The translations under genes were made by a program, and so were the position numbers. Positions 27,632-51,983 of a stretch of 64,000 bases of DNA are shown one piece after another. The DNA comes from Bacteroidales bacterium (GTDB lineage Bacteria > Bacteroidota > Bacteroidia > Bacteroidales > GWA2-32-17): positions 1-64,000 of the forward strand of contig JABUFC010000007.1 of assembly GCA_013314715.1 (NCBI GenBank). The letters run 5' to 3'. The notes beneath the pieces were generated by a model that worked only from the letters and a program-made list of their open reading frames with translations, searched no databases and was not told the origin of the DNA. Position 1 is the first letter of the stretch; each line of letters starts with the position of its first letter.

Positions 27632-27704
27632 ATTTTTTTTTGGCAAAATTACACGTTTATTTTCAACTTTAAAAATGGTATATTTGATTATCTCTTTAAA
27701 TAAA

Positions 27705-28766
27705 CTAAAATGTAAGCTTACAAAAAGATATACTGTCGAATAAAATGGTGCCTTGCTTATCTTTAAAAGTCAATTGTTCAAGTCGAGCGAAGCAGGTATG
27801 ATCTACAATATAAATACTTAATAAACCATTTAAAGCTGGGAATACTTGATCGCAATCGTCTAAAAGGGTTACTATTTCGTCGAGCGATTCAATATTTATT
27901 TTATGATTGATTAAATACACATCGCTTTTAGAAGCCAAATTGGTTGCATAAAATTGTTCTTTTTTAGAGTCTGCCAAATAATGTTTTATATATACATATT
28001 GTTTTATTCCAACCTGTTTTAAAAGATAAAGGGTATCGTTTTGAAAGAATACTTTTTCATTTGTTACAAATACTTGTTGATTGCATTGTTCTATTAAAGA
28101 CAATGCTTTTTGCTCGATAAGCAATTCGTGAATGCTTTTTTGAGGTTGTTTTATTAACGTATCATTTTTTATACTGGTTTCTGTGTATTTATAAGATTTA
28201 CGCTTCATTTTTTTTCGAAATTTAATAGCCGAATGCAATGCATATAGATTTATTCCAAGCCCCATATTGGGTGATATGTTCCATTGTGTTTCATATTCGG
28301 GATGATGTTTTTTGTCCAAAATAAAGATACCCGGATCGAGCGTTAAACCAATATCTACGTTTAATATTTCTTCACGAATTTCAACCCCAATCATACCACA
28401 AAAGCCATAAACAATAGGGTTATATTTTGACTCGCCTATACTTGGTAAATAATAGTTATTTAACCAACCAAAATAAATTCCGGTGTATGCTTGCCAATTA
28501 CCGCTTTTGCGATAATAATAATAACGACTATATATGCCATAATTGAAAGAAGGCTGTATAGTATGTTCGTAAATATATTGTTCGCTCTGATAGCCTGCAT
28601 TTAACGAAAAGCCTAAATGCTTAATGCGATATTCTAAAGCGATACCCCTACCACCCCACAAAACACCCTGACCAATTTTAGCATTAACATATTTTTTATC
28701 GGTTAGCTGGGCTTGTAGCTGAATAAATACAAATATTAATGTTGCAACTAACCAGCATTTTATCAT
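27705..28766 (-). CDS. Outer-membrane barrel-like protein with a soluble C-terminal part
   Basis: Not assigned to a known family. The 353-residue product has a signal peptide ending at LQAQ. Residues ~20-185 alternate hydrophobic and aromatic residues (GVLWGGRGIALEYRIKHLGFSLNAGYQ, YGIYSRYYYYRKSGNWQAYTGIYFGWL), as in a small beta-barrel. The rest is a soluble beta-rich domain with repeated phrases such as VFFQNDTLYLLKQ. The ATG overlaps the end of the sensor-kinase C-terminal ORF by four bases, suggesting that it is made together with that kinase. Confidence 0.75.
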   Translation of the reverse strand: MIKCWLVATLIFVFIQLQAQLTDKKYVNAKIGQGVLWGGRGIALEYRIKHLGFSLNAGYQSEQYIYEHTIQPSFNYGIYSRYYYYRKSGNWQAYTGIYFGWLNNYYLPSIGESKYNPIVYGFCGMIGVEIREEILNVDIGLTLDPGIFILDKKHHPEYETQWNISPNMGLGINLYALHSAIKFRKKMKRKSYKYTETSIKNDTLIKQPQKSIHELLIEQKALSLIEQCNQQVFVTNEKVFFQNDTLYLLKQVGIKQYVYIKHYLADSKKEQFYATNLASKSDVYLINHKINIESLDEIVTLLDDCDQVFPALNGLLSIYIVDHTCFARLEQLTFKDKQGTILFDSISFCKLTF

Positions 28767-29281
28767 TGTATGGGTATTTCAATTTTAAACATACATCCTT
28801 TTTCTAAATGTTGAAAGTCAATGATTCCACCCAGCATTTTTATGCGGTTGTAAATCAAATGTAATCCTTGACCTTTAGAATTATTCGATAAAATATGGTT
28901 ATAGTAATCGAAGCCTATGCCATCGTCTTGATATGTAATAAAAATTGCTTTTTCGACTTGAAAAATTTTTAATTCAATGTTTTGGGCTTGGCTATGCTTG
29001 TATCCATTATGTATCAATTCGGTAACAGTTCTATAAATAATATCTTCTATAACCGACTCAAATCGTGGCTGTTGAGTTTGAAAAGAAAAATTTAATTTTA
29101 TTTCTTCTATTTTTGAAAGCTTTTGCAAATAAAGCATAATGGCTTTTTCGAGTCCAAAATTACTTAACACCTGACTCATAAGTTCAGATGACACATGGCG
29201 CAACATCTGAATTCCATCATCGAGCATTTGCATGGCTTCGTTGTAAAGATTTTTCCGTTCTTCTACTTTTTTTTGATTCAT
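28763..29281 (-). CDS. Histidine kinase C-terminal part (HATPase), separated from its N-terminal part by a frameshift
   Basis: The 172 residues begin MNQKKVEERKNLYNEAM, which continues the HisKA_3 helix of the ORF at 29217-30194 in another frame. The rest is a HATPase_c domain: an N-box HNGYKHSQAQNIELKIF, DDGIGFDYYNH, and the G-box GQGLHLIYNRIKMLGG. The two frames meet in a run of eight A (minus strand, 29267-29274); losing one A would restore a single kinase. Alone this fragment has no phosphoacceptor His and no input domain. Confidence 0.8.
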   Translation of the reverse strand: MNQKKVEERKNLYNEAMQMLDDGIQMLRHVSSELMSQVLSNFGLEKAIMLYLQKLSKIEEIKLNFSFQTQQPRFESVIEDIIYRTVTELIHNGYKHSQAQNIELKIFQVEKAIFITYQDDGIGFDYYNHILSNNSKGQGLHLIYNRIKMLGGIIDFQHLEKGCMFKIEIPIQ

Positions 29282-30194
29282 CGAAAGCACGAGTAAAATA
29301 CATCTTTGATGTAGCAAAAACAGGTGCTATATTGTCATGAATATTTTCTGAAATTTGTCGTCGTTCTTTTTCTTCAGTTTCAGCAACTATATTTAACAAC
29401 TGTTTTTGTAATTGCCTTAGTTCGGTAATATCTCTTAAACTAATGACAGCACATTTTATTCCATCTATTTCTACTAATTTGGCATTTACCTGACAAATTG
29501 CCTGTTTATTTTTGGGGCGATTGATAAGTGTTATTTCATGATTTAATAAAACTTTTTCTTCTATAAGCTTTTTTACTCCTTCCTTCCATTGTTTTCGGTT
29601 ATTTAAAATATAATATACCGGCTGATTGATAAGCATTTCGGAAGGAATATCTAAAACGTTTTCGATAGAAGGGCTAATTTCTTTTATATGAAAGCGATTA
29701 TCGAGTACAAAATAAACATCTTGTATGTTTTCAAAAATCATGCGGTAACGTTTTTCGTTATTCGCAATAACTTTTTGTTGTTCTTGTAATTTGTATTTAT
29801 AAGTAATCGTTTTAAGTGTTCGGACAATTGAACTTTCAATTTTATTTATAAAACCCAAATCTTTAATAACATAATCTTCCGCTCCTAAACGAAGAAATTC
29901 GCTGGCAATTTCTTCGTTACCGGCTCCAGTTATGGCAATAAATGGATGTTGAACACCTAATGTTCTAAGTTTCTCAATTAAAACATCGCCTGTAATGTCG
30001 TTTAGCTCATAATCGACAATCATGAGCAATGGTGTATTGTGGGTTTCAAAATATTCAATAGCTTCGCTACCCGAAAGGGCATGTATCAGCGATATACCTA
30101 ATAACTCGAGACGATATTTTAAAAGCGTACCTAAAGCATGGTCGTCTTCAATTAAGAGAACGGTTTTAATATAAAAGTCATCTGTTTTATTCAT
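29217..30194 (-). CDS. Hybrid response-regulator/PAS/HisKA_3 kinase, N-terminal part (frameshifted)
   Basis: Receiver domain at residues 1-125 with acidic ED near 16, phosphoacceptor D61 (MIVDYELND), and a conserved Lys in YVIKD. A PAS domain follows (NEKRYRMIFENIQDVYFVLDNRF), then the HisKA_3 dimerisation helix with H286 in RRQISENIHDNIAP. The reading frame then changes to SKKSRRTEKSLQRSHANAR and stops, where a kinase should continue into its ATPase domain. The ATPase domain lies in the overlapping ORF to the left. It is a NarL/DegS-like sensor with its receiver at the N-terminus; no partner DNA-binding regulator is next to it. Confidence 0.8.
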   Translation of the reverse strand: MNKTDDFYIKTVLLIEDDHALGTLLKYRLELLGISLIHALSGSEAIEYFETHNTPLLMIVDYELNDITGDVLIEKLRTLGVQHPFIAITGAGNEEIASEFLRLGAEDYVIKDLGFINKIESSIVRTLKTITYKYKLQEQQKVIANNEKRYRMIFENIQDVYFVLDNRFHIKEISPSIENVLDIPSEMLINQPVYYILNNRKQWKEGVKKLIEEKVLLNHEITLINRPKNKQAICQVNAKLVEIDGIKCAVISLRDITELRQLQKQLLNIVAETEEKERRQISENIHDNIAPVFATSKMYFTRAFDESKKSRRTEKSLQRSHANAR

Positions 30195-30249
30195 TTCTAA
30201 AAAAACTGTGCATATTTACGCAAAAAACAACAAATGGTTTCGACATTTT

Positions 30250-31473
30250 TTATAAGTAATCGGCTTGCTGTCCTTTAACAAAAGGTGCAATAGCTCTATT
30301 ATAAACGCCTTGCACGTATGCAATGGTCATTCCATAGTTAGTTACTGGTATGCCCGCATCGATAGCAGGTTTTAACCTATTAAAAAGTTGCTTTCGTGTA
30401 ATCATGCAACCGCCACATTGTATTACCAATGCATAATCGGTAATAGGACGTTGGAGTGAGCTTAAACCGGCAACGACATCGAAGTGCAAATTTTTTCCTG
30501 TAAACTGGCTAATCCAACGAGGAATTTTTACTCGCCCGATATCGTCGCACGATACATGATGCGTGCATGATTCTAATAACAAAATACGATCTCCGTCTTT
30601 TAGCTCACTAATTTTAGGAGTGCCTTTTAAATATTCCTGAAAATGACCTTTATAATGAGCCAATAAAACACTAAAACCTGTTAAAGGAATATTTTCGGGA
30701 ATCATAGCTGCAGCCTTTAAAAACAATTGACTATCAGTAATTGCTAATGCTGGTTGAATCTGAGTATTTCGCAAAAAAGCATCGACTTCTCGTTCTTTAA
30801 GAATAATACAAATGGCATCGTTATCGAGCACATCGCGAATTACTTGTACTTGTGGCAAAATAAGGCGGCCTTCCGGTGCTTCTACGTCGATAGGAGTAAT
30901 TAGCAATACAATATCGCCTTGTTTTATTAAATCGCCCACTAAAGTAGGCGTAGAATATGCCGACTCAGGAATAGCTTGTTTAATAGCCGGTATAATGTAA
31001 TTAAGTCGTTGAGGTTCATGAACACTAAATAAAATAATCGATTGTTTAATATATGCTTCAACTTCGTTAATAAAATCTTTTGATGGAGGATAAATATCAA
31101 TTTTACTGTATATAACAAGGTAAGGTATATCGTACTTTTGAAATTCGTGAATTAAATTTTTCTCAAAATCGTCGAATGTATTTTGAGTAATAATAAGAAT
31201 AGCCAAATCGATAATAGAAAGTGTTTCGAGTGTTTTTTTTATTCGCTTTTGACCAATTTCTCCTTCGTCATCTAATCCAGCAGTATCTATTAAAACAACA
31301 GGTCCGAAGCCTGTAATTTCATACGATTTTTTAACAGGGTCGGTCGTTGTTCCTGCAACATCAGAAACAATAGCAATGTCTTGTCCTGTTATACTATTAA
31401 TAAAACTACTTTTTCCGTAGTTTCTCCTGCCATATATACCAATATGCGGTTTTTGTTCTTTACCTTTTTGCAT
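30250..31473 (-). CDS. hydF: [FeFe]-hydrogenase maturation GTPase HydF
   Basis: Scaffold that assembles the 2Fe subcluster and passes it to HydA. The 407-residue protein has an N-terminal GTPase domain (P-loop GRRNYGKSS at ~15-23, VAGTTTDP, DTAG) and a C-terminal FeS domain with C303-x-H305 and C353-x-x-C356. The residue before C353 is Gln, where many homologues have His. It ends a tight operon after a methyltransferase, a glycosyltransferase and a lipoprotein. hydE, hydG and the hydrogenase itself are not in the window. Confidence 0.93.
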   Translation of the reverse strand: MQKGKEQKPHIGIYGRRNYGKSSFINSITGQDIAIVSDVAGTTTDPVKKSYEITGFGPVVLIDTAGLDDEGEIGQKRIKKTLETLSIIDLAILIITQNTFDDFEKNLIHEFQKYDIPYLVIYSKIDIYPPSKDFINEVEAYIKQSIILFSVHEPQRLNYIIPAIKQAIPESAYSTPTLVGDLIKQGDIVLLITPIDVEAPEGRLILPQVQVIRDVLDNDAICIILKEREVDAFLRNTQIQPALAITDSQLFLKAAAMIPENIPLTGFSVLLAHYKGHFQEYLKGTPKISELKDGDRILLLESCTHHVSCDDIGRVKIPRWISQFTGKNLHFDVVAGLSSLQRPITDYALVIQCGGCMITRKQLFNRLKPAIDAGIPVTNYGMTIAYVQGVYNRAIAPFVKGQQADYL

Positions 31474-31476
31474 ATT

Positions 31477-32436
31477 TTATTTTTTTTTAAAAACAAATAA
31501 AACGGTTCCTGATTTTTTTTGCCATGCTTCAAACATATCTACCAGAAAATAATATGGCATAGCAATAAAAAAATAAAAACGCTGATACCATAATATCTTT
31601 TTTGATACATCACTCAAATAATCTTTATTGCCCTTAAACGATTCGAACAATATTTCGCGCTTAGGTGCTTTTTTATTCATTTGACTTTGAACATAACCAA
31701 AAGGATTTTGTTCTGGCGAAAAATAACAAATATTGTATAATTCGAAGCCATATTGCTGCATAAATGCTACAAAATCGTCAGGTTGAATAAAATTCAAATG
31801 ACGTGGTGGATCTAAATGTAACCAATAACCTTTATATTTTTGAGCTTGATGCGATGCGATATTAGGAAATGATACGATAAAAACACCTTGGCTCCTAAGC
31901 CAACTCTGAACCTTTTCTATAATTTGTATAGGGTTTTTAGTATGCTCTAAAACATGAAACATTGTAATAGCATCAAAACTGTCATGATCATACATTGCAT
32001 CTTCAATTTTACCAATATGAATATGAAGATGTTCGTATTTTTTAGCTCTATCGGCACTATTACCAGGGAGTTCAATACCATATAATTGCTTAAATCCTAA
32101 ACCATGCAAATAATTTAAAAAACGACCATTTCCACAACCGATGTCTAATATTTTACTCTGTTTTTTATGGTTTAGTATTTTTTTTAACATTCGAGCTCTA
32201 CTGCTTCGAAAATAATCGAGAACTTTTTCAACAAAGGGGAAATTAAATTTGTTTTTGCCGGCGCCATAATAATCGGTAGCATATGCTCTTGCCAGTTGCT
32301 CATCGGTAGGAAAAGGATGTAAAAAATAAAAACGACACGATTGGCAACGATACAAATCCCATTTATTTTGATAAATATCTATTGTATGCCATTGATATTG
32401 ATTTTTAGAAGAATGACAAAAGGGACAAGTTACCAT
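31477..32436 (-). CDS. Class I SAM-dependent methyltransferase with N-terminal zinc-ribbon-like cysteines
   Basis: The 319-residue protein begins with CPFCHSSKNQYQW and CQSCRFYFLHPFP, two CxxC pairs. The methyltransferase fold follows: ILDIGCGNGRFLNYL (motif I, near residue 95), ITMFHVLEHTKNP and PPRHLNFIQPDDF. A C-terminal hydrophobic stretch (FYFFIAMPYYFLVDMF) may touch the membrane. This type commonly sits in surface polysaccharide loci. It overlaps the GT2 gene by one base and precedes hydF by three. The substrate is unknown. Confidence 0.88.
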   Translation of the reverse strand: MVTCPFCHSSKNQYQWHTIDIYQNKWDLYRCQSCRFYFLHPFPTDEQLARAYATDYYGAGKNKFNFPFVEKVLDYFRSSRARMLKKILNHKKQSKILDIGCGNGRFLNYLHGLGFKQLYGIELPGNSADRAKKYEHLHIHIGKIEDAMYDHDSFDAITMFHVLEHTKNPIQIIEKVQSWLRSQGVFIVSFPNIASHQAQKYKGYWLHLDPPRHLNFIQPDDFVAFMQQYGFELYNICYFSPEQNPFGYVQSQMNKKAPKREILFESFKGNKDYLSDVSKKILWYQRFYFFIAMPYYFLVDMFEAWQKKSGTVLFVFKKK

Positions 32437-33197
32437 TATGAATTTTGTTTTTCAATTTTTTCAAAAATGGCATAATGCCTCCAACCCCATTTTTGCATTC
32501 GATATTGCAGTGAGGTTTTAATAACTCCCAGTCCATATTTTACACTACGAGAAAAATTTATAGACGATGCATCTTCGAAATATTTGGTTGGGCAAGAAAT
32601 CTCTGCAATAGAAAAACCAGCATAAAAAATCTGAGCCAACATTTGATTATCGAACACAAAATCGTTTGAGTTGGCATTATAGTTAATGGTTTGTAAAACT
32701 TTTCGATTAAAAGCTCTATAACCTGTATGATATTCAGAAAGCTTTTGTGCAATAACAAAGTTCTGAAATAATGTTAACAATCTATTAAAAAAGTACTTAT
32801 ATTTTGGCATTCCTCCTTTTAAAGCTCCTTTACCCAAAATTCTAGACCCTAAAACAACATCGTATAAACCCTGAGCTAATATATATGCCATAGATGGTAT
32901 TAGCTTTGGAGTATATTGATAATCGGGGTGAAGCATAACAATTATATCTGCCTCAAGCTCCAATGCTTTTTGATAACAAGTTTTTTGATTTCCGCCGTAT
33001 CCAAGATTTTTTTGATGCCGAATAATATGTTTAATACCAAGGCTTTGTGCTACATGTATAGTATTATCGCTACTGGCATCGTCAACAACAATCACGTCGT
33101 CAACAATATCAAAAGGAATTTCGGCATAGGTAGCTCGCAATGTTTTTTCGGCATTATATGCCGGCATAACAACAACTACCTTTTTGCCAGCAAGCAT
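32436..33197 (-). CDS. Family 2 glycosyltransferase (dolichol-phosphate-mannose-synthase-like)
   Basis: Probably adds a sugar from a nucleotide donor to a lipid carrier or glycan. The 253-residue GT-A protein has VVVVMPAYNAEKTL, DDVIVVDDASSDNT and ADIIVMLHPDYQY, where HPD replaces the common DxD-like aspartates (DAD). No C-terminal transmembrane helix is seen, so it would be a cytoplasmic or peripheral enzyme. It starts three bases after the upstream lipoprotein gene. Confidence 0.88.
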   Translation of the reverse strand: MLAGKKVVVVMPAYNAEKTLRATYAEIPFDIVDDVIVVDDASSDNTIHVAQSLGIKHIIRHQKNLGYGGNQKTCYQKALELEADIIVMLHPDYQYTPKLIPSMAYILAQGLYDVVLGSRILGKGALKGGMPKYKYFFNRLLTLFQNFVIAQKLSEYHTGYRAFNRKVLQTINYNANSNDFVFDNQMLAQIFYAGFSIAEISCPTKYFEDASSINFSRSVKYGLGVIKTSLQYRMQKWGWRHYAIFEKIEKQNS

Positions 33198-33200
33198 AAA

Positions 33201-33719
33201 TTATTCGAATTTTACCATAAGATGATCGAATAATGCTACTTCATGCGAAGGCGACCAAACATAAACAAGAATTTCCGATGACGGATTTACTTCTTTAGGT
33301 AAATCTACACTAAAACTAACATTACTCCAAATAGATGTTTCTTTTATCTGTTGGTCAAAAGCTTGCGATTGCCAAAAAACATTTTGTCCATTATTTTTTA
33401 TATCAATAACTAATTGTACTTTAGAAGGAATTTGATACAAATAACCCTCGCACGAAACCGTCATTTTTTTAGCATTTTTCACTTTAATATCTTTATATAA
33501 TGCTTTAAAACCATAACTAAATTCGTGGGTTGTATCAACAAAGAACACATAAGGATGCTTATCCATTTTTGCTTCTTTCGTAAAATCTTTGTTAATCCAA
33601 GGCAATAAGTCAATAGCATCTGCAATATATGCATTTTTTTCGTTCGAATTTGAATCGGAATTACAAGAATAAAACCAGAATAGAATTCCTGCTAAGGTTA
33701 AAAAAATAAATTTGTTCAT
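33201..33719 (-). CDS. Lipoprotein of unknown function
   Basis: The 172-residue product has the signal peptide FIFLTLAGILFWF and a lipobox cysteine in YSCNSDSNSNEK. The mature part is beta-sandwich-like (AKKMTVSCEGYLYQIPSKVQLVIDIKNNGQNVFWQSQAF), resembling a carbohydrate-binding-type or jelly-roll domain; no enzyme motif is visible. It is the first gene of the operon running to hydF. A TATATTTG box lies 17 bases before the ATG. Confidence 0.8.
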   Translation of the reverse strand: MNKFIFLTLAGILFWFYSCNSDSNSNEKNAYIADAIDLLPWINKDFTKEAKMDKHPYVFFVDTTHEFSYGFKALYKDIKVKNAKKMTVSCEGYLYQIPSKVQLVIDIKNNGQNVFWQSQAFDQQIKETSIWSNVSFSVDLPKEVNPSSEILVYVWSPSHEVALFDHLMVKFE

Positions 33720-50859: not shown

Positions 50860-51445
50860 ATTTTTTAAATTTTTTTTTGAAAGCTTCGATGTCCGAAGGA
50901 CAATTCAAATTTAATAAAATTTCTTGAAATTCGCAAGCATATCTTATTTTTTGATACTGACTTAAAAATACTCTGAAATTATTTGTTTCGGTTTGGTTGC
51001 TTATAAGACTGCTAGTTATTTCTGCACTAAGTAAAACAGGATGTCCACCTTGATTTTGATATACGGGTACGACAAATGCCGACGGTTTTAAAAGATGCGA
51101 CATTTCAAATATGAGTTTTTTATTGATAAATGGATTATCAACATTTTGTATAAAAACGGATGATGAGCCAATTTTGCTTAATCCCATTTTTAATGAGTAA
51201 AGCCGACCTTTTTCTGGAAGTTGGTTAATAACTATATTTATTTCGTAGTTTAAATAAGAATAAAGTGAATCAATTATTTTTTTGCCTTCGTTATTTAATA
51301 CTACCGTAATTTGCGATACGTTGCAATTTTTTAATCCTGATACTAAGTATTCTAATAATGTAAGTTGACTATTGATTTTAACAAATGGTTTTGGTTGTCC
51401 CATTCGAGATGAATTGCCAGCCGCAAGAATAATAAAAGGATACAT
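50855..51445 (-). CDS. MobA-like nucleotidyltransferase (MocA/NTP_transf_3 family)
   Basis: The 196-residue protein has the nucleotide-binding N-terminus IILAAGNSSRMGQPKPFVKI, the metal-binding QNVDNPFI (D-x-P equivalent) and VPVYQNQGGHPVLLSA. These are the MocA/MobA-like features of cytidylyl- or guanylyltransferases for molybdenum cofactor, but family members with other roles are common. No molybdenum gene is nearby, so the substrate is not assigned. A TAATTTTG box is at 51461-51468. Confidence 0.8.
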   Translation of the reverse strand: MYPFIILAAGNSSRMGQPKPFVKINSQLTLLEYLVSGLKNCNVSQITVVLNNEGKKIIDSLYSYLNYEINIVINQLPEKGRLYSLKMGLSKIGSSSVFIQNVDNPFINKKLIFEMSHLLKPSAFVVPVYQNQGGHPVLLSAEITSSLISNQTETNNFRVFLSQYQKIRYACEFQEILLNLNCPSDIEAFKKKFKKF

Positions 51446-51545: not shown

Positions 51546-51983
51546 TTAAAAAAGTTGTGTAAAAAAAATTAGTATAAAATAACGTGCGGCTTTTCCTAGA
51601 AACATAAACAAACATACTTTAAAGGGGGGTGCTTTAAATAATCCCAAAACTAATGCTATGGCATCTCCAATTGCTGGCATCCATGTAAATAATGCGGTAA
51701 GCGTGGTATATTTATGTACATAATGTTCGGCTTTTTTGATTTTATTATCAGAAATTCGAAGGTATTTATGAATCCATTCGGTTTTACCTGCTCTGCCAAT
51801 ATAATAGTTGGTCATTCCTCCCAATGTATTGCCTATGCTTGCAATAACAAATACCCATGCGGCGTCGTATTTTAGAGCAATCATTCCAATGACAATGATA
51901 TCAGAACTAAAAGGAATAATGGTTGCCGAAAGAAAAGATACAAGAAATAATCCCCCGTAACCAAGACTAAACCAAAACGACAT
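51546..51983 (-). CDS. YqaA family (DedA/VTT-type) inner-membrane protein
   Basis: The 145-residue product has four hydrophobic segments: GYGGLFLVSFLSATIIPF, IIVIGMIALKYDAAWVFVIASIGNTLGGMTNYYIGRAG, LTALFTWMPAIGDAIALVLGLF and VCLFMFLGKAARYFILIFFTQLF. The GNTLGG, YxIGR and W-x-P-x-IGD motifs are those of YqaA, a SNARE-associated/VTT-domain membrane protein. Transport or membrane-lipid role is not established. It lies eight bases after cvpA. Confidence 0.88.
   Translation of the reverse strand: MSFWFSLGYGGLFLVSFLSATIIPFSSDIIVIGMIALKYDAAWVFVIASIGNTLGGMTNYYIGRAGKTEWIHKYLRISDNKIKKAEHYVHKYTTLTALFTWMPAIGDAIALVLGLFKAPPFKVCLFMFLGKAARYFILIFFTQLF

Follow-up and report, generated by a model that had tools for sequence, protein, structure and literature searches.

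A sensor kinase gene whose coding sequence changes frame at an A8 run in a Bacteroidales genome

The 64-kb stretch of Bacteroidales DNA analysed here (the window) carries, on its minus strand, two overlapping ORFs that hold between them the parts of a sensor kinase. The locus raises the question of why these parts lie in two frames, and whether the run of eight A at which the frames meet is a device for making two products, a switch, an error in the assembled sequence or the site of a mutation. The two frames are offset by a single base, and the ORFs overlap at this run (A8, positions 29267-29274, minus strand; T8 on the plus strand). The overlap, counted from the ATG of the downstream ORF to the stop of the upstream ORF, is 29217-29281, the interval marked in the first-pass annotation. 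The upstream ORF reads through the run into a short wrong tail and stops at 29219-29217. A mechanical ORF list starts the downstream ORF at a TTG and gives it as 28763-29317 (184 aa). The locus and its neighbours are laid out as follows.

30250-31473, minus strand: next upstream gene, encoding the [FeFe]-hydrogenase maturation GTPase HydF; order shared with two genomes of the genus (G001 and G003)
29217-30194, minus strand: upstream ORF, 325 aa, with the receiver, a PAS-like part, the His286 helix and a non-native tail past the A run
29856-30161, minus strand: receiver domain, residues 12-113, with the D61 codon at 30012-30014
29421-29750, minus strand: PAS-like region, residues about 149-258, below the Pfam cut-off in the window and over it in the orthologues
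29337-29339, minus strand: His286 codon; the intact orthologues match HisKA_3 over this region
29267-29274, minus strand: A8 run, site of the coding-frame change by sequence and by codon-usage change-point
28763-29281, minus strand: downstream ORF, read from the ATG at 29281, with the remaining HisKA_3 hairpin and the HATPase
28769-29047, minus strand: HATPase_c domain, containing ELIHNGYKHS (N box), DDGIGF (G1 box) and GQGL (G2 box)
27705-28766, minus strand: next gene downstream, with no Pfam family over the cut-off; order again shared with G001 and G003

The receiver and ATPase domains of such a sensor kinase were both matched over the Pfam cut-off, Response_reg in the upstream ORF (E = 3.5e-15) and HATPase_c in the downstream ORF (E = 3.9e-7). 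The phosphate-accepting histidine and the ATPase are not on one continuous polypeptide, since they are encoded in different frames. The PAS match in the upstream ORF is weak (E = 0.0013, under the cut-off). Pfam HisKA_3 matches neither fragment; in both intact orthologues from the same genus it covers residues 277-338, which span the position of the break. D61 and H286 are invariant in a four-row alignment of the window with three intact homologues. The first-pass annotation had described a receiver-PAS-HisKA_3 part with these two residues and an HATPase part, in different frames that overlap at the A8. The frames and the residues are borne out, and so are the receiver and HATPase assignments; the PAS part is weakly matched, and HisKA_3 is recognized only in the orthologues.

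The position of the frame change was also located by a homology-free test, a codon-usage score for which 28 further genes of the window served as the training set. The best point is 29275-29276, and positions 29238-29285 fall within 3 nats of it. Since codon usage places the change of frame at the run, and the two fragments match successive stretches of a single protein in the relatives, the pattern is more than chance. Outside this genome the closest matches are G001:C71 (503 aa) and G003:C44 (487 aa), open frames from the same genus with 43-47% identity to the window in each half. Both are HisKA_3 kinases with an N-terminal receiver and PAS domain that resemble the window locus in domain order, neighbours and motif residues, but each is one continuous frame, whereas the window locus occupies two. 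The locus is one receiver-PAS-HisKA_3-HATPase kinase gene spread over two frames. The first-pass annotation had proposed a single kinase gene split by a one-base offset at the A8 and had suggested a comparison of homologous loci; the codon-usage change-point and the continuous orthologues agree with the proposal, and in the closest relatives the halves are not separate genes.

The window, G001 and G003 share one gene order: a gene with no assigned family, a glycosyltransferase, a methyltransferase, HydF, the kinase and the next gene. At the place that corresponds to the A8, neither orthologue has such a run. In the G001 orthologue an A8 occurs roughly five codons later, where it is read in frame, and an off-frame ATG arises from an Asp-Glu codon pair, as does the ATG at 29281 in the window. 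The conserved block around HydF (27705-33719 in the window, with the glycosyltransferase, methyltransferase and kinase) occurs in three genomes of the genus and is missing from the fourth, G002. There, HydF is the sole match to window ORFs among nine ORFs in 12 kb, and no close homologue of the kinase was found in that genome; on these grounds the kinase gene looks dispensable in the genus. G002 also contains a possibly broken regulator (G002:C47:16201-16350), where GerE (LuxR-type) is matched over the cut-off but the frame is 35 aa long and a TAA interrupts the match.

A break of this kind is exceptional among the kinases compared. A search with the ATPase ORF in 10 genomes of the family, one per species, gave 38 places. 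The window place lies in a 187-aa frame, the only one shorter than 270 aa; one other is in a 270-aa frame (G004:C93) and 36 are in frames of at least 396 aa. A contig scan of other genomes covered 80 loci, among them L041 and L042, which we judge to be G001 and G003 again. Matches spanned the junction at 21 of these, none of which contains a stop, and the 59 loci with no spanning match are hence uninformative on the junction. The scan recovered both orthologues from the genus and no copy from the window's own species, records of which it may omit; a search of viral contigs gave no relative of the locus. The window's own genome has 24 HATPase_c places, 23 of them over the cut-off, and the window place is the single exception to frames of at least 359 aa among these 23. 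The 24th, under the cut-off, is in a 138-aa frame. Among the genomes compared, the break is restricted to this lineage and the gene is otherwise intact, as would be the case for a recent frameshift. Judged from sequence comparison, the locus behaves as a singleton frameshift among the relatives examined.

The constraint on the two halves was assessed in an alignment with six intact homologues, in which 38 columns upstream of the break and 23 downstream are invariant. The window retains 36 and 21 of these, in agreement with the earlier statement that the parts are otherwise intact. When the homologues were left out one at a time, the omitted homologue kept 38 of the 39-43 upstream columns, and 23 of the 23-28 downstream columns, on which the remaining five agree; on the same columns the window keeps 36-40 and 21-25. 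The downstream piece restarts two alignment columns past the end of the upstream piece, so only the frame has been disturbed. Because family-invariant residues are kept in both halves about as they are in intact homologues, the break looks young, and decay seems not to have set in. We also calculated a three-taxon distance ratio, that of the window to its genus mates over that of G001 to G003. This ratio is 2.49 for the upstream half and 1.15 for the downstream half, and 2.07, 1.28, 1.30, 1.26 and 1.83 for five neighbouring genes. The upstream half is thus the most diverged of the seven pieces and the downstream half lies below its neighbours, although three taxa and so few genes are too few to date the break. 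The high upstream ratio speaks against constraint that is wholly unchanged, and could reflect a relaxation of constraint older than the frame change.

The run itself does not stand out. There are 33 A/T runs of at least 8 in the window, 24 of them inside genes, as counted over a set of 57 hand-chosen window genes. Sense A-runs of at least 8 in these genes number 19, against a mean of 22.8 (sd 3.1) after synonymous-codon shuffling; with a count so near the shuffle mean, nothing marks the A8 as selected. An A8 inside a gene is ordinary in this window. Only the one at 29267-29274, out of the 24 runs inside genes, splits an obvious gene, as judged from ORF layout. Sense A-runs of at least 9 are rarer in the genes than in the shuffles (3 vs 8.2, sd 1.6). 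Four long A/T runs (27633-27641, 31480-31488, 50870-50878 and 51561-51568) lie 5 nt from an ORF start or 3-15 nt from a stop, where a change in length would affect gene ends only.

We conclude, with moderate confidence, that the locus carries a recent, lineage-restricted frameshift, produced when an unremarkable poly-A run slipped by one base. The kinase gene, from an uncultured bacterium of Bacteroidales type, would have gone out of frame not long ago and, among the genomes compared, in no other lineage. The probable event is slipped-strand replication that changed the length of the run by one base, in which case the change would truly be present in the organism's DNA. Translation would then yield the receiver-PAS-His part followed by a short stretch of wrong residues. 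A histidine-kinase fragment with no ATPase should not autophosphorylate, so the product has presumably lost its activity. Only chance internal starts or rare slippage would produce the ATPase half. Such a slip is ordinary and is no new decoding mechanism. The GeneTack survey (PMC3711429) takes singleton frameshifted genes as likely indel mutations or sequencing errors.

The second of these outcomes is the main rival: the run length in the draft consensus may be wrong and the organism's kinase continuous. This is a serious possibility, if clearly a less probable one than a true mutation. Errors in homopolymer length are frequent in consensus sequences, the genome is a draft in 100 contigs and the two relatives from the genus are metagenome-assembled; both halves also look functional, with their invariant residues kept. 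Such errors would have to be rare in this assembly, in which only 1 of the 24 A/T runs of at least 8 inside genes splits an obvious gene and 22 of the 23 over-cut-off HATPase_c places are in long frames. By these two results the assembly has no general weakness at such runs, and generally poor assembly as an explanation is unsupported. Recent mutation and consensus error, two of the four causes that the first-pass annotation left open, both fit the locus.

Phase variation, the third, would have reversible replication slippage at the run turn the kinase on and off within the population; we regard this as unlikely. In Campylobacter jejuni it is described at A/T tracts within flgR, and flgS is phase-variable too (PMC3930126); there, as in the window, an A/T tract is the place where a two-component gene loses its frame. 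For those genes reversion is described, whereas the window locus is known from one consensus sequence. In Table 2 of the GeneTack survey (PMC3711429), frameshifted HATPase_c/HisKA/Response_reg genes likewise form three large clusters that are labelled phase variation. Like the window locus, these have a frame step in a receiver/kinase gene (+1 in two of the three clusters), often near a poly-A/T stretch of at least 7, but they extend over many genera, while the window locus is a singleton among the relatives examined. The run is conserved in neither orthologue from the genus, and the 19 sense A-runs of at least 8 are what shuffled genes would lead one to expect. Nothing beyond the A8 itself points to phase variation, and A8 runs are common in the genes of the window.

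The last of the four causes was programmed slippage, and it does not fit. Neither the slippery site nor the split is conserved in the relatives: the run is absent at this position in both orthologues from the genus, each of which is a single frame, and the step required is +1. A -1 shift, or the gain of one base in the mRNA, fails as a route to the full kinase, as the third frame runs directly into a TAG at 29265. There is, in addition, a reading in which RNA polymerase or the ribosome slips at the run and yields some full kinase besides the short form, either as two products or as a rescue; this is about as unlikely as phase variation. An A8 permits re-pairing after a one-base slip, and poly-A frameshifts in Blochmannia and Buchnera are reported or proposed to be rescued in this way (PMC3017870). 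Those cases resemble the window in the A-run, the otherwise intact gene and the lack of clear decay, but some of the splits are conserved across species and they occur in reduced genomes, whereas the split in the window is unconserved and lies in a 3.0 Mb genome. Restoring the frame here needs the loss of one mRNA base, but single-base insertions dominate at A/T runs in E. coli and Buchnera transcriptomes (PMC5574713); in that work only a minority of the deletions lay in homopolymers, and no frame was restored. A very unlikely extension of the idea makes the A8 a tunable switch in a free-living Bacteroidales lineage, where slippage would keep full kinase scarce relative to a receiver-PAS-His decoy, and the decoy would take up or drain the phosphate of the pathway. 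A genuine split kinase, with the ATPase half as a separate, translationally coupled product, is hardly credible: there are in-frame ATGs at 29281 and, a few bases before the upstream TGA, at 29233 and 29227, but the nearest relatives have fused proteins, the split falls inside the HisKA_3 region, and the ATG at 29281 overlaps the Asp-Glu codon pair that gives the same off-frame ATG in G001.

The result matters mostly for annotation, in which a single frameshifted kinase gene should be entered here instead of two genes. If sequencing reads showed mixed run lengths, it would represent phase variation of a signalling gene at an A-run in Bacteroidales.
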